DNA of 12,139 bases from Gloeopeniophorella convolvens (lineage: Eukaryota > Basidiomycota > Agaricomycetes > Russulales), in NCBI GenBank assembly GCA_022496205.1, contig WTXD01000332.1:1-12139 (forward strand), in the 5' to 3' direction. The notes beneath the pieces are model-generated. The model was not told where the DNA came from, ran no database searches, and was given only the letters and a program-made list of their open reading frames with translations. This document shows positions 1-12,139 of the stretch, in pieces; position 1 is the first letter of the stretch; every line of letters starts with the position of its first letter. A program made the translations under genes and the position numbers.

Positions 1-53
1 ACATTTGTCCTCTGCACCTGGACAGATGAGACAAATACCATCAGAGCTTGTGG

Positions 54-110
54 GTGAGTGAAAAATATGCTTCTATTATCCCTTATGCACAATGCTAATT
101 TGGTAATCAG
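54..110 (+). other. Spliceosomal intron 1 of the 1-1925 gene (57 bp)
   Basis: GTGAGT donor at 54-59, GCTAAT branch site at 94-99 and a TAATCAG acceptor ending at 110. An in-frame TGA at 55-57 would end the open frame from base 1 if the intron were not removed. Splicing joins GG|A and continues into an open exon. Size and signals are typical of basidiomycete introns. Confidence 0.8.
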
Positions 111-229
111 ACAAGAGTATAACAAATATATTGACAATGGAGTTGACTTCAAGAGTATGATCAGAGACTGGGAGACAGCCCCATTGTGGAATAGCTGGAA
201 GAGATATTCTCAGAGGTGCTTTGCAAACG

Positions 230-278
230 GTCCGTGTTTATCTGTCTTCAATATCTCTATCACTAATATCCCTGCTAG
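230..278 (+). other. Spliceosomal intron 2 of the 1-1925 gene (49 bp)
   Basis: GTCCGT donor at 230-235, CACTAAT branch site at 261-267 and a TGCTAG acceptor ending at 278. Removal moves the reading frame from the one ending at 324 to the one open to 685. The donor lies inside ACGGTCCGTGTTT, a motif that recurs in the intergenic repeats of this window. Confidence 0.75.
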
Positions 279-835
279 CTATGCATGTTCCAGCACCACC
301 AGCATCTGGAAAGGCCAATCATGAGCCGATCATGATTGAACTTGATAGAGAAGGATGTCCTCTAGTTCCAGTGATTGCAGACTATTCTCAGCATCATGCC
401 AAAGTGATTCAGGGTGCTGTCAGAGACTTTCTCACCCTACATCTCAGTGAGTCACCCTTCACCTTGTTTATTACTCCTTATAATATGATCATAGAGTTTG
501 TCACAGGCCGCAAAAACCTTGCTATTAGCTGGAGTGCCCTTAAGAAGGATCAATTTGCTTGGCTCCAAGAGGACAGTCTCCCCACAGATCTCCAGCTACA
601 AGATCCATCCAAGATGGCAAGGATGATGTTCAGCGTCTCCTTGACTACTGGTATGAGCAGGAAGAGGCTGGAATTCAACCTGTAGAGTGGAAGAGCACTT
701 GTCCCCTTCTGAGGGATGAGCCACCTCGTGTCTCTAACATTCCTAGGCCTGTTCCTCGTGCTCAAGAGCCTGAGGCTCCCCTACCATCACCCCAGCTCCC
801 TCCTAATGTGTTGGAGCCAGATCTTGACCGTCCTA

Positions 836-885
836 GTATGCATGGCCACTCTTATCTATATGAAACATATCTGACATTAATATAG
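836..885 (+). other. Spliceosomal intron 3 of the 1-1925 gene (50 bp)
   Basis: GTATGC donor at 836-841, CTGAC branch site at 871-875 and an ATATAG acceptor ending at 885. Without splicing the upstream frame stops at 883-885. With splicing it enters the frame that runs to the LTR insertion at 1085. Confidence 0.78.
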
Positions 886-1085
886 CCACTGATGGAGGTT
901 CTAGGCACGCACGGCCCATTCCAACACGCACCTTTGCCCCCTTGCCATCTAGAGCTCGTGGTGCACCCTCAGATGCATCTGTGACATTTGCCTCGACAGT
1001 TGCAGGTGCATCTATGGCCAATCGAAGCAATGAAGGCTCATCCAACACTCGTGGTGGCCCATCATCTATCACAGCAGTCACAAGT

Positions 1086-1653
1086 TGTCACGTGCTGTGC
1101 AGGGGTTCTGCCGAAGGACTTGCAAGACCTAAGCCTCGCGGTCGCAGTAGAGGATGAAGAGCGATGGGGCAAGTCGGGTGGCGATCAAGCACACTAGAGG
1201 ATGCCACTGAAACTCCAGTATATTACAGGAGGTCAAAGCTAAGGAGCTAAGATGCTACTGGCAGGTCCTTATATACTACAAGGGTACCTACTGACTAAGC
1301 TACTGGTTCGGGTTCATGTGGGTCAGGAAGCACGGAGTACAAGTGGGGCATGCTATAAATAGACATGCTGACTGAACACTCACTCAGCTGACGTCACCAT
1401 CAGTCAGCAGTGAGTCATCCGTGTTTCGTCAGCGTCATGGCCTAGGCCCGGTCACGAGTCTCATCACGTGCTCGGTCACGTGACTGCGGAGAACTCGGTC
1501 CAAGGGCGAGGCGTCGAAGCCGATCGTCTATGCTCGTCAGTCCCTCCTGCTGCTGATCGTACCGCACTAGGTTGGCACGGACATCTGCAGATGTCAGAAG
1601 GGGCGTCGGGGTCGGGTCGCCCGGCCCGGAAGCCGCGGGCTGAGATCGTGACA
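1086..1653 (-). mobile_element. Solo LTR inserted in an exon (568 bp, TSD CAAGT)
   Basis: The element begins TGTCACG and ends CGTGACA, a perfect 7-bp inverted terminal repeat with TG...CA ends. It is flanked by identical 5-bp sequences, CAAGT at 1081-1085 and CAAGT at 1654-1658, the size of duplication made by LTR retrotransposon integrases. There is no internal coding region, so it is a solo LTR. Orientation is uncertain. A TATATAAGG box on the - strand (1268-1275) and local similarity to the - oriented copia LTR at 2684-3169 (14 identical bases at 1263-1276 and 2899-2912; CGGAGTACAAG at 1333-1343 and 2995-3005) favour minus. TATAAATAG at 1354-1362 would suit plus. The ends resemble those of the gypsy LTR at 7073 (TGTCACGA...TGACA) rather than the copia LTRs (TGTTGA...TCAACA), so family membership is open. 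Confidence 0.8.
1389..1417. promoter_or_regulatory. bZIP-type sites in the solo LTR: TGACGTCA and TGAGTCA
   Basis: A perfect CRE-like palindrome TGACGTCA lies at 1389-1396 and a Gcn4/AP-1-like TGAGTCA at 1411-1417. CACGTG E-box cores occur elsewhere in the same LTR, near 1090, 1465 and 1477. These are known binding words for fungal bZIP and bHLH factors. That they work here is inference. Confidence 0.35.
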
Positions 1654-1925
1654 CAAGTAGGTCTAGAAGGCGACCCAATGTGGCAGCCATTGAGGAGGAT
1701 GATGGTGAGCCTGTGGTGCATGAGCGAGGCAGTGGTGGTGGATCAGTGCCTGCCATGGCACTCTCTACAAGCACAAGTCGTCCAAAGCGTAACACTATGC
1801 TGACTGAAAAGGCTAGGTACAATTCTTCTCCCTATTCACTATCTTGTGGTACTGACATTGTTCCTTACCCTGCAGCAATCCTGATAGAGGACGAGGGGCA
1901 GGCAGAGTTCCCAATCACTTCTTGA

Positions 1926-2033
1926 GTGGTGGAGTATAGTTTCTAGGTTATACTGCATTGCCTAGGTAGTTTCTATTTATTGTGTACCTAGGTTGTTGGT
2001 GTTTGAGGTGTACTGCCATGATTATATTTTTTG
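1926..2033. other. 3' flank of the spliced gene
   Basis: AT-rich sequence after the TGA at 1925 with no open frame of note. It presumably holds the 3' UTR. CCTAGG occurs at about 1961 and again at about 1987. No clear polyadenylation signal was recognised. Confidence 0.3.
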
Positions 2034-2330
2034 CATGGACCGTTTTATACACGGTCCGATTCAGAAATGGTCCGTGCATATGTAGTGTAAGTACTCCATA
2101 TCCATTGAGTTTAAATGACCTATATGAGTACTCCTTGCACGGTCCGTTCTAAAGTGCTTATACGGTCCGTGTTTCTGCATTGTATGCATTTAGAGTACAC
2201 TACATAGTATCTAGTGTATTATGGTTACACTCACCTATCTTGATTTATCACTCATCATCTGAGTTATGTGTATGGTGGACAACCTTGCAGTCACTTGATA
2301 TATCTAGTCCTTTGCATCTAGTACACTTAT
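2034..2330. repeat. Palindrome-rich repeat, copy R1
   Basis: Diverged direct copy of 3195-3530. Both carry GCATGGACCGT- or ACGGTCCG-type words, then TGTAGTGTAA, TTTAAATGAC, TTGCACGGTCCGTTC, ACGGTCCGTGTTTCTGC, TTGTATGC, AGAGTACACTACATAGTAT and CTGAGTTAT in the same order. ACGGWCCGT is nearly self-complementary. A second inverted pair, TATGTAGTGTA and TACACTACATA, brackets about 120 bp. No coding frame was seen. The class is unknown; it may be a non-autonomous element or a duplicated intergenic segment. Confidence 0.65.
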
Positions 2331-2683
2331 TATATTCCATTGTATATTAGTCTTCACAACTAGTCTAATATTCTTGTAGTGTATATTACACTCCCCAATA
2401 GACATGCTTTATCTCTAGCTCCTTTTCATATTGAAGGACTTTGCAGAGTGTATTCTCAGTTTGAGAGCATATCTTACTTGTAGATAAAGATATGTCTTAT
2501 GATGCTTGACACCTGGATAATCAAAGCCATCTGAGTATAGCCATTACAACAGCTTGATTGATGCAGTCCTGTTTACTCTGTATACCTAGCACAACAGGTT
2601 ATAGATGAGTAGTTCACACAGATATTACCTATACTGCCTGCACAGTCTGATCTGTGCATAGTCTATTCTCTAACATGATCTAA
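2331..2683. other. AT-rich intergenic stretch, no gene seen
   Basis: No open frame, RNA gene or recognised element. It contains further GTAGTGTA/TACACT inverted words (about 2376-2392) like those in R1 and R2, so it may be the diverged tail of the same repeat family. It ends with TCTAA, the left target duplication of the solo LTR that follows. Confidence 0.4.
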
Positions 2684-3169
2684 TGTTGAAGCGCAGCAAA
2701 GGGTGGAGTGACAACTGAAGGACACAGAGTGACGCTCAGTCAGAGAAGGTCAAGAGACTGATACATTAGTGCAATACCTGAAGGACACAGAGTGACGCTA
2801 CAAGGTAAGGTAAGCATAAGGTAGAAGTGAAAAGAGCGGTAGTGTACTTGCCTCAGTCAGAGAAGGTCAAAAGACTGAGGCTACAAAGGCGAAGAAAGAG
2901 GTCCTTATATACAGTAAGGAGCGACAGATAGCATGTGATAAACACTGCTTAGAAAGCCTAGGAGACCCACATGAAACGGAGTAAGAGTGGGTACCGGAGT
3001 ACAAGGTGGGTCATGGAATGCCCTAGAATAGTCCAGAATCATGGAAACGAATGTGGGGCTGAACACAGCCTTAAGTCTAGAACATTATGTACATAAGATA
3101 AGATAGTCCTTGATCATTAGGTCCATATCTAATCTAATCAGAGCCGCCAGGACACTGTCCGTCTCAACA
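2684..3169 (-). mobile_element. Copia-family solo LTR (486 bp, TSD TCTAA)
   Basis: Begins TGTTGAAGCGCAGCA and ends GTCTCAACA, with TGTTGA/TCAACA inverted ends. It is flanked by perfect TCTAA duplications at 2679-2683 and 3170-3174. It aligns along its length with the 3' LTR of the copia element at 4589-5114, sharing both ends, the CCTCAGTC...GACTGAGG hairpin, the TATA box, GTGGGTCATGGAA and TATCTAATCTAATCAGAG. It is minus in orientation because the TATA box reads TATATAAGG on that strand and the related element is coded there. It is a solo LTR, presumably left by LTR-LTR recombination. Confidence 0.9.
2903..2911 (-). promoter_or_regulatory. TATA box of the solo copia LTR
   Basis: TATATAAGG on the minus strand, about 260 bp from the LTR 5' end (3169). 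It matches in place the TATATAAAGG at 4805-4814 in the second copia LTR, which supports a conserved promoter. Confidence 0.6.
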
Positions 3170-3194
3170 TCTAATCTATTCAGTGATCATTCTA

Positions 3195-3530
3195 AACATG
3201 GACCATTCTATACACGGACCGTGCTGTGCATGGACCGTTCCATGCACGGTCCGTTCTATACACAGACCGTTCCATGCACAGACCATGCACATGTAGTGTA
3301 ACTGAACTATATATACAGATTTTAAATGACTTGTTTATAGGGCCTTTGCACGGTCCGTTCGATAGCACTCGCACGGTCCGTGTTTCTGCCTTGTATGCGC
3401 TCAGAGTACACTACATAGTATGTAATGTAACATGGTAACACTCATTCATCTTGAGTTACCACTCACCACCTGAGTTATATGTATAGTGGGGGCCCTTGGA
3501 ATCATCTGATGTATCTACTCACTATACTGA
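3195..3530. repeat. Palindrome-rich repeat, copy R2, with expanded ACGGWCCGT array
   Basis: Second copy of the repeat at 2034-2330. Its first 100 bp (about 3195-3290) are an array of alternating GGACCG/GGTCCG words separated by TTCTATACAC or TTCCATGCAC spacers. It has at least six such words where R1 has three, so the array has expanded or contracted. The remainder follows R1 in order through CTGAGTTAT and TGATGTATCTA. The small ORFs across it are by-products of the low-complexity array. Confidence 0.65.
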
Positions 3531-3638
3531 AGTACTTATGTGTTTATCACTCAATGAGTACTGGGATACTACTTGGGTACTCCTTAATACTTCATTTTAT
3601 GTTTTCCTAGTCATGGCTGCACTCAAAACGATGTTTGC

Positions 3639-3733
3639 ACGGTCCGTTTTGGCCGACGGTTGGCCGACCCATGAGTCATGTGCAGAAACGGTCCGGTCGG
3701 CCGACGTCGGCTGGCCATGAGTCATATGTAGAA
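3639..3733. repeat. Two-copy tandem repeat with ATGAGTCAT palindromes
   Basis: Units 3639-3687 and 3688-3733 each run ACGGTCCGK, then two GGCCGAC/GGCTGGCC-type words, then ATGAGTCAT, then ATGTRTAGAA-like ends. ATGAGTCAT occurs at 3671-3679 and 3717-3725 and is a perfect palindrome matching the Gcn4/AP-1 consensus. GGCCGACGTCGGC at about 3700-3712 is a further palindrome. The repeat lies just beyond the stop codon of the minus-strand gene ending at 3792. Confidence 0.55.
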
Positions 3734-3791
3734 TCTTTGGTCGGGCCGTTCCATAAGTGATATAGCCGGTCTTGGTCCATATGTGCCTGAG

Positions 3792-4397
3792 TCACTCCCT
3801 CAGTGTTGACCTGCAGCATGGCCCGTTTTGGCAGCACACGGGTCGGTCTGCACTTTGCAAGGGTTCTACAAGCCCAGAGAATGTGTCAGAGATGTACAAA
3901 CACGATAGGGATACTGAGACGCACCTGGTTCATCCACCTCCATCTCCTCAGCTGCTGGTGGCAGCCACCACCTATCCAACTCCCCATCCTCAATCATCAC
4001 CTCCTCCAGGTCAGTGCTAGACAAGACACCCTCCCTCTTGAACTTCTGACAGGCTTTAGTGATGCTCTTCATGGTGAGCTCATCCAGAGGGGTCACAGTC
4101 TCACCTTCCCACAGGCTGGAAGCAAGCTTGATGGCTGGGTGGACAGAGAGGTGCTCCAAAGTTCTCTTTTGCATCTTGATAGCAGTGTCCTACATATTCT
4201 GACTGTTAGAGACATTGAATGAAATAATGACACTGAAAACTCACCACCTCTTGCTTCAGATGCTTTTTGAAGTCCTTGTCAGGGATTGCATTACCCTGAT
4301 CCCTTGCCCTGACAGCCTCAATGATCCTACAGGCAATCTGTAGCATATCTTGCTGCTCATCAGTGTATTTGAGGTACTCTAGACGAAGGTCAGACAT
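3792..4397 (-). CDS. Unrecognised small protein, three exons (about 163 aa)
   Basis: I do not recognise the family. Exon 1 is 4397-4245, exon 2 is 4189-3925 and exon 3 is 3865-3792, with TGA at 3794-3792. The exon total is 492 nt, exactly 164 codons including the stop. The start is the ATG at 4397, chosen because the sequence before it is a CT-rich leader typical of fungal genes and the protein-like composition begins there (MSDLRLEYLKYTDEQQ). Residues 1-100 are charged and look helical (IIEAVRARDQ, KHLKQEVDTAIKMQKR). Residues about 115-140 are acidic (LEEVMIEDGELDRWW, EEMEVDEP). The last 20 residues are Cys-rich and lie near ACGG-type repeat words, so the 3' end may be a later addition. No signal peptide or membrane segment was seen. 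A copia LTR lies 191 bp upstream of the start and may have displaced its promoter. It could be a host gene or a transposon accessory gene. Confidence 0.62.
3866..3924 (-). other. Intron 2 of the 3792-4397 gene (59 bp)
   Basis: On the minus strand, GTGCGT donor at 3924-3919, CTCTGACAC branch region and a GGCTTGTAG acceptor ending at 3866. The unspliced frame stops inside the acceptor (TAG 3868-3866). Confidence 0.7.
4190..4244 (-). other. Intron 1 of the 3792-4397 gene (55 bp)
   Basis: On the minus strand, GTGAGT donor at 4244-4239, CTCTAAC branch site and a TATGTAG acceptor ending at 4190. It is phase 0, and removal joins two frames that each end soon after if unspliced. Confidence 0.75.
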
Positions 4398-4588
4398 TGA
4401 AGCGATGGGGATGAGTGGGATAGTGTGTGGAAAGTGTGAGGGGGATTTAGGACACTTTGGATGGCTTGTGATGCTGATTGAGCCCCAAACATGGCCCATG
4501 CAAGGTGCACACACAGCCCGTGTCTGGAACGGCCCGGCCAGATGATCCATATCTAGCACTCAGTGATGTCATCAACTCAATTTGAAAT
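4398..4588 (-). promoter_or_regulatory. 5' leader and remaining upstream region of the 3792-4397 gene
   Basis: Read on the minus strand, the last 70 bases before the ATG are C/T-rich with few G, as in many basidiomycete leaders. No TATA box was recognised. The copia LTR begins at 4589, leaving under 200 bp of native upstream DNA. GAAAT at 4584-4588 is the expected left target duplication of the copia element; its partner lies outside the window. Confidence 0.35.
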
Positions 4589-5114
4589 TGTTGAAGCGCA
4601 GCAGAAACAGGGTGCCAACTAGGCAAGCAAGAGCAAAGCTCAGTCAGTGAAGTCAACAGACTAAATGTCATTGGCGCAATACCTAGGCAAGCAAGAGCAA
4701 AGCTAAAGTAACTAGGTAAGCGCAAGTCCGGAAGTTCCGGAAGTAAAGTACTTGCCTCAGTCAGTGAAGTCAACAGACTGAGGCTACAAGGGCGAAAACA
4801 GCGTCCTTTATATACACAAAAGGAGTGTGGTTTGCATATGATAAACAACAGCAACATGTGATAACCAGAGACCCATGTGAAAGTGGAACTAAAGTGGGTC
4901 GACCGGAACTGCAGGTGGGTCAACCCGGAACTGCATGTGGGTCATGGAAGAGCCCGGAAGAATCTAGAACAGGAACGAAAGTAGGTACAGCCTTAGGGGC
5001 TAGAACATAATGATGTCATATACATTGTAGATCAGATAGCTCGCAGATCACCGAGTCCCTTATCTAATCTAATCAGAGACGTCCTTCCTGTCCTGAGTCC
5101 TGTCCGTCTCAACA
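4589..5114 (-). mobile_element. 3' LTR of the copia element (526 bp)
   Basis: TGTTGAAGCGCAGCAG...GTCTCAACA with TGTTGA/TCAACA ends. It is homologous to the solo LTR at 2684-3169 and directly abuts the polypurine tract at 5115. It contains a 22-nt direct repeat (4619-4640 and 4683-4704), a 9-bp-stem hairpin GCCTCAGTC...GACTGAGGC (4754-4784), and three related GTGGGTC words near 4893-4943. The last 16 codons of pol read into its 5' edge (5114-5069). Confidence 0.92.
4805..4814 (-). promoter_or_regulatory. TATA box in the copia 3' LTR
   Basis: TATATAAAGG on the minus strand, about 300 bp from the LTR 5' edge. It is in the same relative place as TATATAAGG in the solo LTR at 2903-2911. Confidence 0.6.
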
Positions 5115-7072
5115 TCCCCCCGTGATCCAGACTGTCTCACTACAATGCCCATGCGCTTATTGAGCAGCCGCAGGTTATCCTTTGGCAGGGATTTTGTGAA
5201 GCCGTCGGCGACCATGTCCTCAGTGCGAGTGCGCACCAATTCAATGACACCTTGTTCAACATATTCCCGTATAACATGATGCTTGATAGCAATATGTTTG
5301 GATCGCTTCCCAGTGACAGGATTTAATGCCAAATCAATGGCACCTTTGTTATCACCGTGAAGTGGGATGCGGGATCCTCAACGTCGTACTCAAGCTCCAT
5401 GAAGAAGCTCCGATACCACTGAGCCTGGTTAGAGGCATCAGTCATGGCCATGTACTCTGCATGTGTAGTACTCTGGGCAATAGTCTTTTGCTTGCGCGAA
5501 GACCAAGAGATTGCACCATTGCATAGCAAGAATACGTAACCGGACGTAGAGTGGTAATCGTCTGGCTGGTCTGCCAGAGAGGAATCAGAGTAGCCGCTAA
5601 GCCAACTCTTTGACGTGCCATTATAGCATAGCGCATAGTCTGCAGTACCATTAAGATATGCCATAACATATTTTGCTAGCCTTATATGGTCTTTAGAGGG
5701 ATTTGCGGCGTATTGCGCCAGTCTCCCCACCGCAAAAGAGACATCCGGACGAGTTCCGAGTTGTGCGTACAGCAAACTGCCGATCAAGGACTGGAAGTAT
5801 CCTCGTTCCGCAATAGTTGCTTCATCTGTGTATTTTACAAGGTGCACGTCGGCGCCGGCTGGCAAGGGAGTTGCGGGCGTTTTTGCGCTCCGCAAGTCAA
5901 ACTGAGCAACTTTACTCAAGATATAACCAGTTTGGTCAATCTCGATGCGCCTTCTGGAACGATCGCGAGTGATGCGAATGCCCAGGTATGACTGGATTTC
6001 TCCCAAATCCGTCATTTCATAGCGCTTGCTCAACAGGGTTTTAATCCTGATGACTTCCACAAGGGAATTCCCCATGAGTGTGATATCGTCCACATAGAGT
6101 ATAATGACAACATATAACTTTGTGCCATTCTCTGAACGACAGAGCACTTATACTCCTGCATCAGAGTACGTTCGCTTAAAGCCGAGTTCCACCAGAACTC
6201 CATGGAACTGCAAGTTCCATGCGTGGGAGGCTTGTTTGAGACCATAGATGGCCTTTAGCAGGCGACAGACTTTGCCCTCCTGTCCTACGATGACGAAACC
6301 ATGAGGCTGCTCCATATAGATTTCCTCATCCAGTTCCCCATGAAGGAACGCCGACTTGACGTCCATCTGGTGTATTTCCCAATCTTCCTGCGCGGCCAAC
6401 GCAAGGAGAAGTCTAAGAGACTCAAACTGGGCAACTGGAGAAAATGTTTCGTCGTAATCGATCCCAGGGACTTGTGTAAATCCCTTTGCGACCAACCGAG
6501 CTCTATAGCGACCATCCGCTTTGAGCTTGAAGACCCATTTTGATTTTACTGTCTTGCGACCAGCAGGGAGATCAACTAACTCCCAAGTACCATTCTTAGA
6601 GAGCGCATCCATTTCATGTTGACATGCCTCTAGCCACTCTTGCGCATTTGCAGACTGCATTGCTTCCGCAAAAGTTACGGGGTCTGCGCCTATTGCGACC
6701 GCAAGTAACTGTAGAGTTCCGAGTCTTCCGGTTCTTGGATTCCAAGCAGCATTATTAGGGTTGGCATAGTGCGGATTAGGCCTGCTAACTCTAGTGCTGC
6801 GCCGAACTCCGGCAATCTCCTGAAGAATGTCCTGCTGCGTGGCCATGTCCCCCTCTGGTTCAGGAGTAGGGGAAGGACATCTAGAAGGAGTGGGAGTTTC
6901 GGGAGGGGAAGACTCTTCTTCTGGATCGGCAAGTTCTCTTCCGACCGGAACTCTTGTAGGGGTAGATGGTGCGCTGCGTGGGCGAGTGGGTGGTGTTACA
7001 AATGCTGATGGGTCTTGTTTCTGCTCCTTCTTTGGCGTAGAAGGTGGAGAGGGAGCAGGTGGTGGTACTGGT
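5069..7072 (-). pseudogene. Copia pol fragment: linker, reverse transcriptase and RNase H
   Basis: The minus-strand frame is open from 7072. The first 75 codons are a Pro/Ser-rich linker, normal between integrase and RT in copia Pol, followed by RRSTRVSRPNP (about 6810-6780). The RT follows: NGTWELVDLPAGRKTVKSKW, GIDYDETFSPVAQ, QMDVKSAFLHGELDEEIYM (first catalytic Asp), AIYGLKQA and LYVDDI (catalytic YVDD, about 6090). RNase H shows SGYSDSSLADQ, ISWSSRKQKTIAQST and HAEYMA, then KHIAIKHHVIREY and ADGFTKSLPKDN at the C terminus. Two lesions are visible: an in-frame TAA at 6150-6148 between GV and VLCRSENG, where the same frame continues at once, and a frameshift near 5350 after SHFTV that moves the rest into the frame 5332-5069. 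Integrase, protease and gag are absent, lost to the gypsy insertion at 7073. Confidence 0.93.
5115..5123 (-). other. Polypurine tract of the copia element
   Basis: On the minus strand, ACGGGGGGA sits immediately before the LTR start TGTTGAGACGG. A purine run touching the 3' LTR is the expected primer site for plus-strand DNA synthesis. Here it is also read as pol codons. Confidence 0.75.
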
Positions 7073-7522
7073 TGTCACGAACACTAAGGCCTCAAGGAGG
7101 TCGAACTGCTCAGAACACTAGAGCAAATCCAGCCCTACCAGTAAATACCCTACGCATCGCTCACAATGCGACGCGTACCACTCACATTGCGACTACAAGT
7201 CGAAATGCATCACGTGACCCTTCACCCCCATTCCTCGCCCTACTCCCTAATGGCCAATTAACCCTGGAATACCCCCAAGATCCTGGACTAGGGATCTCTC
7301 AGAATGGCCATATTACTCGTCCCAAAGTAACCAGAACCTTGATCAAGGTGAAACACTTCATGCGTCCTCTTTGGGACTCTGATCATCAAGAACTCCATGG
7401 GGCCTCAAGCCCCACTCTGCGATGGAATCTAAGAAGCGTATCAGAGAGGAGAGGTTATGGGGAATCCCCTCTGGAATCCCCATCAGTAATTAGACCAGAT
7501 TCGTCTGGGGGGTCTCCAGTAG

Positions 7523-7530
7523 TATATAAG
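7523..7530 (+). promoter_or_regulatory. TATA box of the gypsy LTR
   Basis: TATATAAG, about 450 bp into the 650-bp LTR. It predicts transcription starting about 25-35 bp downstream, near 7550-7560. That is where the sequence complementary to the primer-binding site begins (7558). Confidence 0.65.
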
Positions 7531-7557
7531 ACCCCCATGTATCGCCCAGTGGTCCTC

Positions 7558-7567
7558 AGACTGTCCA
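7558..7567 (+). other. Candidate self-primer at the transcript 5' end
   Basis: AGACTGTCCA is the exact reverse complement of TGGACAGTCT at 7725-7734, and it lies about 35 bp after the TATA box, at the expected RNA start. In Tf1 and related sushi-type elements the first 11 or so nucleotides of the RNA fold back and prime reverse transcription. The same role here is inference. Confidence 0.55.
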
Positions 7568-7723
7568 TCTGTGGCACTCTCATCTGTACCTAGCACTGCA
7601 ATAGCACTGTTAGTGTGTTCCCCTCTTCCTGCAATATCGCAGCTCATCTTCTGTCTCCCCCTTTGACGCTCTCCAAACCCTCTGCTATCCTCTCTGCGCG
7701 CACCCGCGAGTGAGTCCTGACAT

Positions 7724-10700
7724 TTGGACAGTCTCTTACACCCTCTGATCAGCTGCGACCCAGTGTCTTACTCTCACTCTGGAATCACTGCACCCCGGAC
7801 TGCGCTCCTCTCGGACCATACTCAACCTCAGGCACTGATTCGCCCCTCGTCCTATCTTGACCTTGACGCTCCCACCTCTGGACCGTCCAACCCCCTTGAC
7901 TACGGCACTCCCACTCGCGGACTGTCTCCTGAACTCCAGTACCCTCCTCTCGTCTCCACTCCTCGTCCTCCGCCTACACCTCGTTCTCCATCATATCATC
8001 CTCGCTCCCCATCTCCGATCGACGTCGAACCAGGACAAATCCTCGACGTTCTCACAGTACCACCTCGCTCTCCCTCTCCTCATCACTCGGCCTTCGACTT
8101 CTAGTCCGCCTCAGAGCTCAACAGGTGCAAGAACGTTTCGCAGAAATAGTACGCACTTCAGCCATCCCTCAGTCTCCCACTCCTGGCCCCTCTCGCACTG
8201 GTGAACAAGCTCCCAGCCCCTTGGTCGAGCCTACTCCAGCCTCCCCTGTCGTATCCACTCCCCAGCCTCGCTGTCGCGTTTTTGCCTCTTTACTCCCCTT
8301 CGCATCTCTCTATCCTTGCCCCTTCTCCTCATCCTGCATCGTCGACGCATACTCCTGCGCTCAGTCCTGCTCCTGTCCTACTCCTCATCTTGTACCAACT
8401 CCCATACCCTCGCGAGCAGCGACGGTATCCCCTTTAATCTTCGCTCCCAATCCAGCACCTGCTCCTGCCCTTGAAATCCTAGTCGACGTCGCAGTCGAGC
8501 AAATCCCAGACCACGCACCTCCTCCATACCAGGCTCTGCCTCGTCGCTCTCCCTCCATCTCTGAGTTCAGTGAGGACCTCACTGACTACGCCAGAACCAC
8601 TTCGTTCTCCCTCGCCGTGCACCATCCCCTGACTGCGCTCACACCAACCACTACTACCACGAGCGCATCGCCCAAGTCCTACACGGTTACCCAGCAGCAG
8701 TCGGCAACCATCACCAGCCTTTCCACGTCCCTCGCATCAGCAGCGCCCTTTACTACCTCACCCACTTCGACGAATTCCTCCCTGAAGTACGCCCCTTCAG
8801 GTCGATCATCCTCCCCAACACTACATCACCATCCCTTCCACGCGCGTGAACGGAGACAGTCCACCATACGCACCACAGTACATCTGTGCCGTCACCGCTT
8901 ACACTCCCCCTTGTCGAGAACTCCCCCTTGGTGCCATCCGTTACGACTTTACCTACCACCTCATCCACACCTTCAAAAACCTGCGTTCGGCACCCAACGA
9001 CTCTACGAAGGAGCAAGAATTCCCCTTCTCATATTGACTTCCTCGACGGCCGCGTCCTCACCACTGAAGGCAACCTCCACTTCAACCACGGTCGCCTCAT
9101 CCGCATCGACAACCGGTACTCCGTCGTAAACGACGCCTGCAGCCTTTACCCCCACCTCAAACTCTTCACCGCCTACGCTCGCGTTCCCAACAACATCAAG
9201 CAGATAGGCGACGATCCCTTCCTCGTTATCGACTCCAACCTCCTCGCCATCGTCCATATTCCGGTAGAAGAGTTCCTGTAAACCCAGTAAACCAAGTCGA
9301 CTACCTTGTACCAGTAGTAGTATCTGCCCAATCGTTTTCTAGAGTGCGTAGCACCTCTGTGGGAGATACTATTGACTCAGACTCGACTCAGTGGAAGCAC
9401 CACCCCAAGTATTGCTTGAAGGACTCCATCTGATCCCTTACAACGACGACAATCGCCTAACCTTTGACCAAGCCTATCGACGCTTCTTCGACAAATACTA
9501 TCAAGTCCTCATCGTATTATCCGACTCCAGTTCTACGACCCTCGCGCTCGTGTCCACGACTTCTCTACCGACACTCTAGTCCGCTCTGACTCTTGGCTTA
9601 CTCCGGTTCTAACAAGACTTCGACGATCTCTCCCATTCGGACAACTCTTTGACAACGATCTACACCTCAGTCACTGGTTCAACGCTGAAAGGAACATTGT
9701 CCAAAGTGCTGTAGAAGAACAGCACCTCTTTTGGTTCCTTCAACGACCTAGCGGTGTACGCTGGGAACCCATCCAAACCACCAACCTCTGGCTCGAACTC
9801 GAGCTCTTCTGGTGGAACATCGTCCAAGTCCACAAAGAACATCTCATCGAGAAAATCCTTACCGGCCATCAAATCTACTATCTTGAACGCTTCATCACTA
9901 CTCCGTACCAGACTCGTCTCCACTTCGCTCAACTTGTTCTACTTCAAGAAAACCCTCTAGTCCTCTCTACTCTATCCGCTCCGGCCCTTTCTGCAACTAT
10001 ACCTTGCACCTACAAGACGCACACTGGATCATAAGTAATCCTCTCGACCTCGACCTTGTCCAATCAAACAACGACTTCCTATATCCTGTACCACGACGAC
10101 CTCCTCTTATTCCTCCAGCAACCCCTGAATCAGACACCGGAGAAAATAGTTGGAACAACGCCCCAAGCATCGTCAGCAACTTCAGCCTCGACGAAGAACA
10201 AGAAGCAACAGACAACGACGTCCCCAGCATCCACACTATCAGCGACCTCGACCTACAAGACACCAGTGACCTTACCGACACCCAGTATTTAGAGATCTAG
10301 TCAGATCCTCCTGTACCCTGTATTTTAGACTATCAGAGTCTTTCTGTCGCAATCCTGGCATCCAGACCTAATCGTCGACGGTCTCCCAGACACCGTCCTC
10401 CGACACCACTACCGCAAGTAGCGTTACCACCAGTACAACGTACGCCAACCCCTGAAGATCCAAGAAACCTCAGCAGAACCCGACTCATCGACATCCAACG
10501 TGATAACGTTGCGCACCACCCAGAAATCATCTACATCGGCCAAACCTTGCCTACCCGAAACTACCTTGGTTTTCACAACTTCCGACGCTGGTGCAGAGAA
10601 GAATACAATCGTCGCCAACTCCGTATCATCAGTTTCCCCCACGATCTCCACGAACTCGCCAACTTTACTAGCGATCCTCTGCACTTTGAAGGCTATCTGT

Positions 10701-10870
10701 GGAAGCGATCTACAAGAATCTTTCGCGACCACATCGAAGAAGACTACGCCCGCATCGAACGCCATACCATTGATCGACGTCGTCCTATCCTTAACCACGC
10801 TTTCACCATCACATATCATCACAACGTCAACACCTACACTGTGCAAGTTGTAGGACTCCCTATCATCTGA
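7724..10870 (+). pseudogene. Large AUG-free coding region ahead of gag, broken by indels (unknown protein)
   Basis: I do not recognise the protein. By eye, protein-like sequence passes through these frames (codon start mod 3): 2 (7724-8104), 1 (about 8101-8590), 0 (8590-8820), 2 (8822-9035), 0 (9035-9275), 2 (9275-9400), 1 (9400-9505), 0 (9505-10031) and 2 (10030-10870), with a TAG at 10298-10300. The first third is Pro/Ser-rich (TPRPPPTPRSPSYHPRSPSP). It then becomes globular, with aromatic- and His-rich segments such as ALYYLTHFDEFLPEVRPF, NLHFNHGRLIRIDNRYSVV, LWLELELFWWNIVQVHKEHL and NYLGFHNFRRWCREEYNRRQ, separated near 10090-10470 by an acidic/Pro-rich linker. No ATG occurs in any frame, so any start must be non-AUG. 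TTG 7724, CTG 7745 and GTG 7763 are in the first frame. The stop TGA (10868-10870) is 10 nt before the gag ATG. The indels could be decay or assembly error. An unrelated inserted sequence is less likely, because the region directly abuts the LTR on one side and gag on the other. Confidence 0.6.
7725..7734 (+). other. Candidate primer-binding site (self-priming type)
   Basis: TGGACAGTCT begins two bases after the LTR end. It starts TGG as tRNA-primed sites do, but I do not recognise a matching tRNA 3' end. It pairs over 10 nt with 7558-7567 in the same RNA. Confidence 0.55.
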
Positions 10871-10880
10871 ATCACTCTTT

Positions 10881-12139
10881 ATGAGTACCGAATTCCAAAG
10901 ATACATCAAAGAGAACAATTGGAACGACCCTAGCCCAGAAGAAATCACTGACATCTCCCGACATCTACCTCCCGGAAGCATTATTAGGAAAATCAGACTT
11001 GACGAAGAAAGCGGACACGTCTACGCCATCGCCACAGTCCTTGGACGAACTCTCGTCCTCGACGAGGCAACCAAGCAAACAGTTTTCACCACTTATCAAG
11101 TACCAGTCCTCGACGCACTCAACGCTTACTACCCACACGCCGATCAACTTCAAGGTTACGCCTGGGCGTCCTTAGAAGGACTTTACAAAGACAAGAAAGT
11201 CCGTTGGAACGAAGGAAGGAAACGGTGGCAATACTTCAACAACCAACCAGTATACTTCGACCCTCCTGAACAAACCCGCGTCGTACCACCACCTACACCA
11301 CCTCCCTCAGACCCCATTAGCTGCAAACTCGCCTCGCACCATACCTGGAGGCTTTGGTACCCCGGAACGTCATCCATCTCCTCAACAAAACCCAATTCCT
11401 GAAGAATCGTCTGAACCAGTTGCGCCTCCATCGTCTCAGCCTCAAGAACTTGTACCTTTCGTCCAGACTCCTATGCCTCCTGTCTCTCGTATCGGACCGA
11501 CTCAGACCCAGTTGCCTCTTCATCTCGTCAGACTCAAGTACCGCCTCCTTTAAACCACCAGTAAACCCACCATCACAAGGAATCACTACTGCTCCGCCCA
11601 AGATGTCTTCCAAATTACTCGGCAGCCCACCAGAACCCTTTGATGGCGCAGAAGCCACTGCCCGCCAATTCCTTTCTCATCTTAACAACTATTATTCGCT
11701 CAATGAAGACCTGTATAACACCGACACCAAGAAGATTGCCGACGCCTATACTCACTTTAAAAACAACACCCGTGCTGGGAATGGGCTCGCGTCCGCATGA
11801 ATGACGCACTCACGAATAAAGCCTACGGCACCTGGAAAGCCTTTGTCGACGCCTTCGAAACTATGTTCACCAACCCGGACCAGAAACAACTCGCTATCAA
11901 CAAGTTCTTCCAGTACCCACAAGGCATTCGCCGCTTCCGCGAATGGTACCAAGATTGGGACGTTGCACGCACTGAAGCTGCCATCACTGACGACACTGTC
12001 ACCATCCCCGTTCTCCGCCATAACCTGAACAATCAACTTGAGCAGAAATACTCTGCTGTCGCAAACAAACCAAAGACGCTTGCGGAAGTCGTTAAGATTA
12101 TCCAAGACTTGACGACTCCTACTGGACGAACCGTCCCAG
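10881..12139 (+). pseudogene. gag: Ty3/gypsy gag: N-terminal domain, Pro-rich linker and capsid, frameshifted, 3'-incomplete
   Basis: It starts at ATG 10881, the first ATG after the predicted RNA start. Residues 1-130 form a compact unrecognised domain (FQRYIKENNWND, GHVYAIATVLGRTLVL, YAWASLEGLYKDKKVRW). A Pro/Gln-rich linker follows (PTPPPSDP, PERHPSPQQNP, SQPQELVPFVQTPMPP). The capsid starts near 11603 (PEPFDGAEATARQFLSHLNN) and continues EWARVRMNDALTNKAYGTW, FVDAFETMFTNPDQKQLAI and FREWYQDWDVARTEAAI to the window end. This is the retrotransposon Gag pattern of Ty3/gypsy elements, which builds the virus-like particle. The frame changes by eye near 11305, 11512, 11553 and 11780 (0 to 1 to 0 to 2 to 1). 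The last falls in GGGAATGG and looks like loss of one G. The copy is broken as read. The zinc knuckle, protease and pol would follow outside. Confidence 0.82.

Follow-up and report, generated by a model that had tools for sequence, protein, structure and literature searches.

Why should more than three kilobases of sequence upstream of a gag gene contain no ATG in any forward frame? This question is raised by a window of 12,139 nucleotides from the fungus Gloeopeniophorella convolvens, which makes up the whole of contig C260 in an assembly of 36.7 Mb and 404 contigs and which ends inside a long terminal repeat (LTR) retrotransposon of the Ty3/gypsy class. A preliminary description of this window had noted an ATG-free stretch from 7540 to 10880 on the plus strand of the element. 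In this study, we examined the stretch together with other copies of the element. The absence of ATGs is a property of the family, shared by two diverged lineages. We consider it probable that the genomic RNA of this element is polycistronic and is read by leaky scanning past open reading frames (ORFs) with non-AUG starts to Gag.

The ATGs of the window at 7537 and 10881 are consecutive on the plus strand, with 3,341 bases between them, exactly as described. The earlier estimate of about 49 missing ATGs holds for an even composition, but the figure falls to 22 when it is corrected for composition. The stretch contains 770 A, 1245 C, 538 G and 788 T, and its dinucleotide content predicts 22.0 ATGs against the zero observed. 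A triplet count against dinucleotide-preserving shuffles, for which the preliminary description had called, gave a mean of 22.05 ATGs (standard deviation 3.96) and a minimum of 10 in 2,000 shuffles, and no other of the 64 triplets has so low an observed/expected ratio as ATG. Other orders of the same letters are present, as had been claimed (observed/expected: AGT 47/39.1, GTA 34/24.9, TGA 34/38.8, TAG 23/26.2, GAT 19/31.5). TAA is scarce as well (11 against 29.5), as would follow from open frames. CAT, which is ATG on the other strand, is normal (63 against 54.6); the effect is therefore specific to the plus strand and points to the RNA. The density of ATGs returns to normal after the stretch (10 against 10.5 expected in 10881-12139), and the longest ATG-free gaps elsewhere measure 252-288 bases (both strands of 1-7060, and the minus strand of 7540-12139).

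The window contig itself ends in gag, and the reverse transcriptase was examined in a copy in contig C47 (L065). In this copy a protease-like match, below cut-off, is followed by a reverse transcriptase with RVT_1 and RNase H domains. The best solved matches of the reverse transcriptase are 4ol8 (E 7.7e-78), which we take to be Ty3, and 7q5b (Transposon Ty3-G Gag-Pol, E 9.1e-77). Gag matches two families below their curated cut-offs, Ty3_capsid (E 0.0012) and Retrotrans_gag (E 0.0014), and the start of a CxxC zinc knuckle (CMYCGG) is visible in it. Judged by the reverse transcriptase, the element is a Ty3/gypsy LTR retrotransposon. It is probably self-primed in the manner of Tf1, because the putative primer binding site (PBS) past the LTR is complementary to a 10-mer inside it (Table 1). 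Of the 25 copies that extend into the region, 23 keep both 10-mers exactly (L021 is without the self-primer and L015 without the PBS). Their pairing is present in the computed fold, and a 10-mer of this kind turned up in only 12 of 20,000 mononucleotide shuffles of 7540-7722. This layout and the TATA box place the predicted 5' end of the RNA at about 7557-7558, some 30 bases past the TATA box and some 20 bases past the last ATG (7537). The earlier placement of the RNA start at about 7555, just past that ATG, agrees with this prediction.

A copy search with 8500-10880 listed 48 matches (40 of 49 candidates scored), from which 30 loci were cut out. One of them (L001) is the window itself, leaving 29 other copies. 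Most of the per-copy ATG counts come from BLAST-aligned pieces and leave unaligned inserts out, while the copies were read directly for end-to-end ATG-free spans, per-copy expectations, the self-primer and PBS, and the beginning of gag. The stretch has no ATG in five copies (L002, L012, L017, L019 and L029), one in two (L003 and L018), two in one (L021), three or four in eight, six in five and 10-25 in eight. The single ATG of L018 comes with an indel, and substitution has created none there. Between the equivalents of the ATGs at 7537 and 10881, L002, L017 and L019 are ATG-free over 3,340, 3,332 and 3,340 bases, respectively, and L012 and L029 are so to the limits of their contigs. Each of these five copies would be expected to hold 19.9-26.7 ATGs. 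ATGs in the consensus of intact copies had been named as a possible refutation; with the copies read one at a time, five of 29 have none, and the claim was not refuted. Nor was it refuted by the count against shuffles or by the predicted RNA start, for which refuting outcomes had also been named.

Ten of the 29 copies form a second lineage (B), in which 8440-9340 is only 67-83% identical to the window in bins of 300 bases (L017-L019, L021, L023, L024, L026 and L028-L030; L025 could not be placed). Past 9340, the bins of L017, L018, L019 and L029 are 96-100% identical to the window. The C-terminal part of the first leader ORF (ORF-A, below) thus occurs in two versions within otherwise near-identical young copies, as if this module had been swapped by recombination. 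ATG absence was found in members of both lineages; three of the five ATG-free copies belong to lineage B and are 68-83% identical to the window over 8440-9340. In L017, L018, L019 and L029, 228-337 substitutions separate the stretch from that of the window, and none of them creates an ATG. When these substitutions were relocated at random with the base changes kept, 6.6-9.7 ATGs were expected and zero was reached in 0 of 300 trials for each copy, a result that counts as about one independent test because the four copies share ancestry. In L021, L023 and L030 of the same lineage, 2, 4 and 4 ATGs were observed against 8.4, 7.3 and 7.8 by relocation. In contrast, the longest-branched copies stand at or above the neutral figure (observed/neutral: L014 25/11.2, L015 19/10.9, L026 21/12.4, L028 22/13.9), or about equal to it (L024 11/11.3). 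Across the 29 copies, longer terminal branches go with more ATGs (Spearman 0.84). Of the 189 substitution-aligned ATGs, 146 stand on an ACG of the window, the pattern that C-to-T change at CpG would produce. In a parsimony count, the share of ATG gains that falls on internal branches is the lowest among 12 triplets, which is the expected direction but not significant.

The preliminary description had called the stretch protein-like and had assumed a single ORF with a non-AUG start. Methionine-free open frames were borne out, but three successive ORFs (ORF-A, ORF-B and ORF-C) were found, not one. They were defined only from frames that are open as they stand in other copies; in the window copy, ORF-A and ORF-B are frameshifted. 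Without stop codons they correspond to 7749-9278, 9376-10297 and 10301-10867. ORF-A encodes 509, 511 and 513 amino acids in L004, L012 and L029, respectively. Full-length matches (at least 478 of 509 residues, no stop) were found for ORF-A in 7 of 88 rows, and ORF-B is full-length in 2 of 74 rows (C105 and C6). A PDB sequence search with ORF-B gave 0 matches, and none of 64 pattern matches in viral_contigs or 203 in genome_contigs was confirmed as a related locus. The structure models were too poor to use (mean predicted local distance difference test score 30.0 for ORF-A and 37.9 for ORF-B). Between the lineages (L004 and L029), ORF-A differs at 114, 89 and 182 first, second and third codon positions, with a nonsynonymous divergence (dN) of 0.23, a synonymous divergence (dS) of 0.60 and dN/dS of about 0.39. 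Within a lineage (L004 and L012), the differences are 23/13/73, dN 0.033, dS 0.21 and dN/dS 0.15, and the ratio spans 0.15-0.39 across three pairings. By this codon pattern ORF-A is under purifying selection and evolves as a protein.

In 1,000 shuffles of synonymous codons with the amino acids kept, 4.0 ATGs were expected for ORF-A of L012, 5.0 for ORF-A of L029 and 3.8 for ORF-B of L004; none was observed in any of them, and zero was reached by 0.4%, 0.2% and 0.4% of the shuffles, respectively. The gag of L005 is normal by the same measure (11 against 13.0). In L004, ORF-C continues the frame of ORF-B after an intervening TAG. This in-frame TAG (10298-10300) is conserved across the whole set of 15 displayed copies, even in those with long branches, and may be read through or lie in a short intron.

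The ATG-free stretch had been said to end exactly at the gag start. The ATG at 10881 does end it, but this ATG opens an N-terminal extension of gag (ORF-D), and the gag core begins at an ATG 807 bases further on in copies without the deletion of the window. The window copy lacks about 83 bases of gag after 11312 that are present in the other copies crossing there, and its aligned pieces overlap by 2 bases at the joint. The context of the first ATG is weak, with T at -3 and A at +4. In five of eight copies checked (L002, L005, L017, L018 and L019), the first ATG reads TTT[ATG]A, and the next one, in frame at +807 bases, reads AAG[ATG]T with A at -3. The interval between them has no ATG in any frame in these copies, against 3.6-3.7 expected. 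About 4.1 kb of RNA would thus hold one weak AUG ahead of the AUG of the gag core. The extension is recognizable in the related Gag proteins P0002-P0005 (28-35% identity over the alignment), and P0006 is without it. Between the first residue and the core methionine (182-240 residues), P0002 and P0004 have no methionine and P0003 has one, at residue 6.

Leaky scanning would explain why one strand is affected, where the stretch begins and ends, why no frame is spared, how the AUG contexts are ordered and what becomes of old copies. The genomic RNA would start at about 7557-7558, and scanning ribosomes would meet no AUG over about 3,323 nucleotides. A minority would initiate early in ORF-A, at a non-AUG codon, and might do likewise in ORF-B and ORF-C, producing methionine-free accessory proteins. 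The remaining ribosomes would reach the weak AUG at 10881 and make an extended Gag, and others would go on to the better AUG of the gag core about 800 nucleotides later. No AUG, then a weak AUG, then a better one is the order that leaky scanning needs. AUGs in any frame would be purged since each would divert ribosomes from Gag. The preliminary description had already suggested selection against upstream AUGs for the sake of scanning to gag. This suggestion is supported in part. We observed that ATGs are absent, that both lineages share this absence, that long-branched copies have lost it, that ORF-A is under coding constraint and that the AUG contexts are weak and then better; we infer the scanning itself, together with the RNA start, non-AUG initiation and translation of the leader ORFs. 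For the full proposal, in which one RNA yields three methionine-free accessory proteins from non-AUG starts and Gag by scanning of more than 3.3 kb (4.1 kb to the core, past a single weak AUG), with the tract kept AUG-free by selection in at least two lineages, we put the chances at about even.

Several results weigh against leaky scanning. Near-intact copies are not all ATG-free, as L004, L005 and L006 carry three or four ATGs at 96-98% identity to the window. The parsimony count gave 15 internal-branch ATG gains where 20.0 were expected, a difference that is not significant (P 0.18). Synonymous shuffles were not distinctive for ORF-A of L004 (2 ATGs against 4.1; 15% of shuffles), nor, taken alone, for ORF-C of L004 (0 against 2.5; 5.2%) or ORF-B of L012 (0 against 2.1; 7.5%). 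Strong-context near-cognate codons occur about as often as chance predicts (25 against 23.6 expected), and scanning ribosomes would need to pass hundreds of near-cognates. In the first 110 codons of ORF-A no conserved near-cognate in strong context stands out; candidates were listed, and none is decisive. At the beginning of gag, the five agreeing copies are near-identical between the two ATGs, and the other three of the eight do not agree: L004 has 8 ATGs in the interval (with an insertion), the long-branched L014 has 8, and L028 is without the exact start context. P0005, a more distant relative, has two methionines inside the extension.

Termination and reinitiation is an unlikely alternative that would use the same RNA. 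ORF-A would be translated from a non-AUG start, followed by ORF-B and ORF-C, and ribosomes would reinitiate at the AUG at 10881, with the absence of AUGs preventing early reinitiation by 40S subunits. The leader ORFs are successive with short spacers, and the stop codon of ORF-C ends at 10870, 10 bases before the ATG. However, eukaryotic reinitiation usually fails after ORFs longer than about 50 codons, according to a review (PMC5902531), and ORF-A has about 510. Nor does reinitiation account for the weak-then-better AUG contexts.

It is quite improbable that gag is translated from a spliced RNA, with the unspliced RNA serving as genome and as message for the leader ORFs. A donor such as the GTGAGT in U5 (7710), intact in nearly all of the copies displayed (Table 1), would be joined to an acceptor just 5' of 10881. 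By hand, GTAAAC...CTCAG at 9278-9380 would also fuse ORF-A to ORF-B in frame. GT...AG pairs of suitable phase are common by chance. Yet ATGs within an intron would be neutral for gag, and none is present. The joined form of 9278-9380 matches no place in the genome with up to three mismatches (flanks of lineage A only). C366 (L064) is the one copy followed up that has gag but no leader matches; its homology stops inside ORF-C at another LTR-like sequence, which indicates insertion or truncation and not a splice join. The intron check thus gave no support. By eye, the LTR-like sequence of C366, against which the family homology ends at window 10792, resembles window ~4590-5110. Neither splicing nor a downstream promoter would call for a tract free of ATGs.

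The leader ORFs might also be relics, so that only the scanning constraint is real and the leader is long, non-coding and AUG-free; we regard this as very improbable. Pfam gave nothing for ORF-A, ORF-B or ORF-C at E up to 1, no ORF-A homolog was found among 7,991 candidates scored, and ORF-B had one protein match among 397, the near-identical P0008 (97%). The only methionine of P0008 is its annotated first residue, which is a valine in the L004 protein. In another repeat of the genome, 1,228 bases are free of ATG yet hold no ORF of 150 codons. Against the relic reading stand the codon-position pattern and dN/dS of ORF-A, and its full-length, stop-free matches. Finally, a bias of composition or mutation, or avoidance of the motif in DNA, is hardly credible as a cause without translation: the stretch is C-rich and G-poor, but the shuffles never fell below 10 ATGs, CAT is normal, the mutation spectrum does create ATGs in long-branched copies, and the left edge of the stretch coincides with the predicted RNA start.

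Table 1. Coordinates of the features of the element in the window
Feature	Position	Strand	Basis or remark
5' LTR, TGTCA...TGACA, 650 bases	7073..7722	+	Family homology from 7072-7073 in many copies; ends read from sequence
TATA box-like TATATAA	7523..7529	+	Read from sequence
Last ATG before the gap	7537..7539	+	Unchanged in 15/15 copies displayed
Stretch without ATG in any + frame	7540..10880	+	ATG listing of window, shuffles
Putative self-primer AGACTGTCCA at predicted RNA 5' end	7558..7567	+	Exact 10-base complement of PBS
Putative donor-like hexamer GTGAGT in U5	7710..7715	+	Intact in 14/15 copies displayed
Putative PBS TGGACAGTCT	7725..7734	+	2 bases past LTR
ORF-A region, methionine-free ORF of 509-513 amino acids in other copies	7749..9281, stop included	+	Frames open in L004, L012, L029
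Spacer between ORF-A and ORF-B	9282..9375	+	Variable, indels up to ~9340
ORF-B region, methionine-free, 308 amino acids in L004, ends TAG	9376..10300	+	Broken in window copy
ORF-C, methionine-free, 189 amino acids	10301..10870	+	Open in window and in 6/7 copies checked that reach its end (not L003)
ORF-D, first ATG of predicted RNA (TTT[ATG]A), gag N-terminal extension	10881..11602	+	Copy and protein comparison
Gag core (MSSKLLGSPPEPFDG...), ATG context AAG[ATG]T	11603..12139	+	Contig ends here

Other repeats were noticed in the window and elsewhere in the genome. Pieces of a Copia-type polyprotein on the minus strand (5323-7074, with RVT_2 in 5323-6147) directly adjoin the gypsy LTR, and repeats of a CACGGTCCGT-like word are clustered, by eye, at ~2036-2170 and 3195-3380. 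On the minus strand of L061 (4980-6205), the 1,228-base ATG-free tract mentioned above stands against 8.8 ATGs expected. This tract is pieced together from three or more repeats. Further copies of its part 227-1173 lie at five sites (40 of 54 candidates scored), and at one of these a reverse transcriptase follows about 2.3 kb downstream, in C400. In the other sister gypsy loci, the longest ATG-free tracts measure 773 bases (L063) and 423 bases (L062). ATG-free leaders are not claimed as a general rule of the sister loci.

To our knowledge, the proposed tract of more than 3.3 kb would be the longest leaky-scanning tract known. If leaky scanning is correct, ribosomal complexes can scan for several kilobases in vivo, and long scanning is something that a retrotransposon can exploit for a polycistronic coding leader. 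The element would also point to proteins that are invisible to ATG-based gene finders because they have no methionine codon. The copies of graded ages offer a ready comparative test of the strength of selection against upstream AUGs.

Our searches of open-licence papers brought up no LTR retrotransposon described with such an AUG-free coding leader, and the closest known systems each share a part of the arrangement. Bicistronic genes of green algae have a weak first start, under-represented start codons before the second ORF and leaky scanning tested in vivo, but they are cellular genes of two ORFs and not mobile elements (PMC11291117). The plant LTR elements Retrosat2, RIRE3 and RIRE8 have a fast-evolving ORF0 of unknown function upstream of gag-pol; the accessible passages make no mention of an AUG-free tract (PMC3485330), whereas here there are three ORFs and ATG is absent in all frames. 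Self-primed LTR retrotransposons of the Tf1/Tj1 type have a PBS complementary to the 5' end of the RNA, as is predicted here next to a Ty3-like reverse transcriptase; unlike here, methionine-free ORFs ahead of gag are not mentioned in the part of the source at hand (PMC4600332). The preliminary description had likened the stretch to the leaky scanning of plant pararetroviruses. In rice tungro bacilliform virus (RTBV), one pregenomic RNA carries an AUU-started ORF, upstream ORFs without internal AUG, a moderate AUG and a further AUG (PMC5902531). The likeness to RTBV and the badnaviruses (Caulimoviridae, with leaky scanning through ORFs I and II) holds for the AUG-free ORFs ahead of the main ORF and for the weak and then better AUG, seen here in five of eight copies; the non-AUG start and the scanning would be parallel. 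The Caulimoviridae are virus genomes without LTRs, whereas an LTR-like end accompanies the leader in many copies here, and the leader proteins were compared with viral ones via Pfam and protein search only. The distance is 900 nucleotides in RTBV, against about 3,320 nucleotides here to the first AUG, almost four times as far, and about 4,130 to the AUG of the gag core. We propose that translation of this element works like that of RTBV, in an LTR retrotransposon that lies outside the family of the virus.

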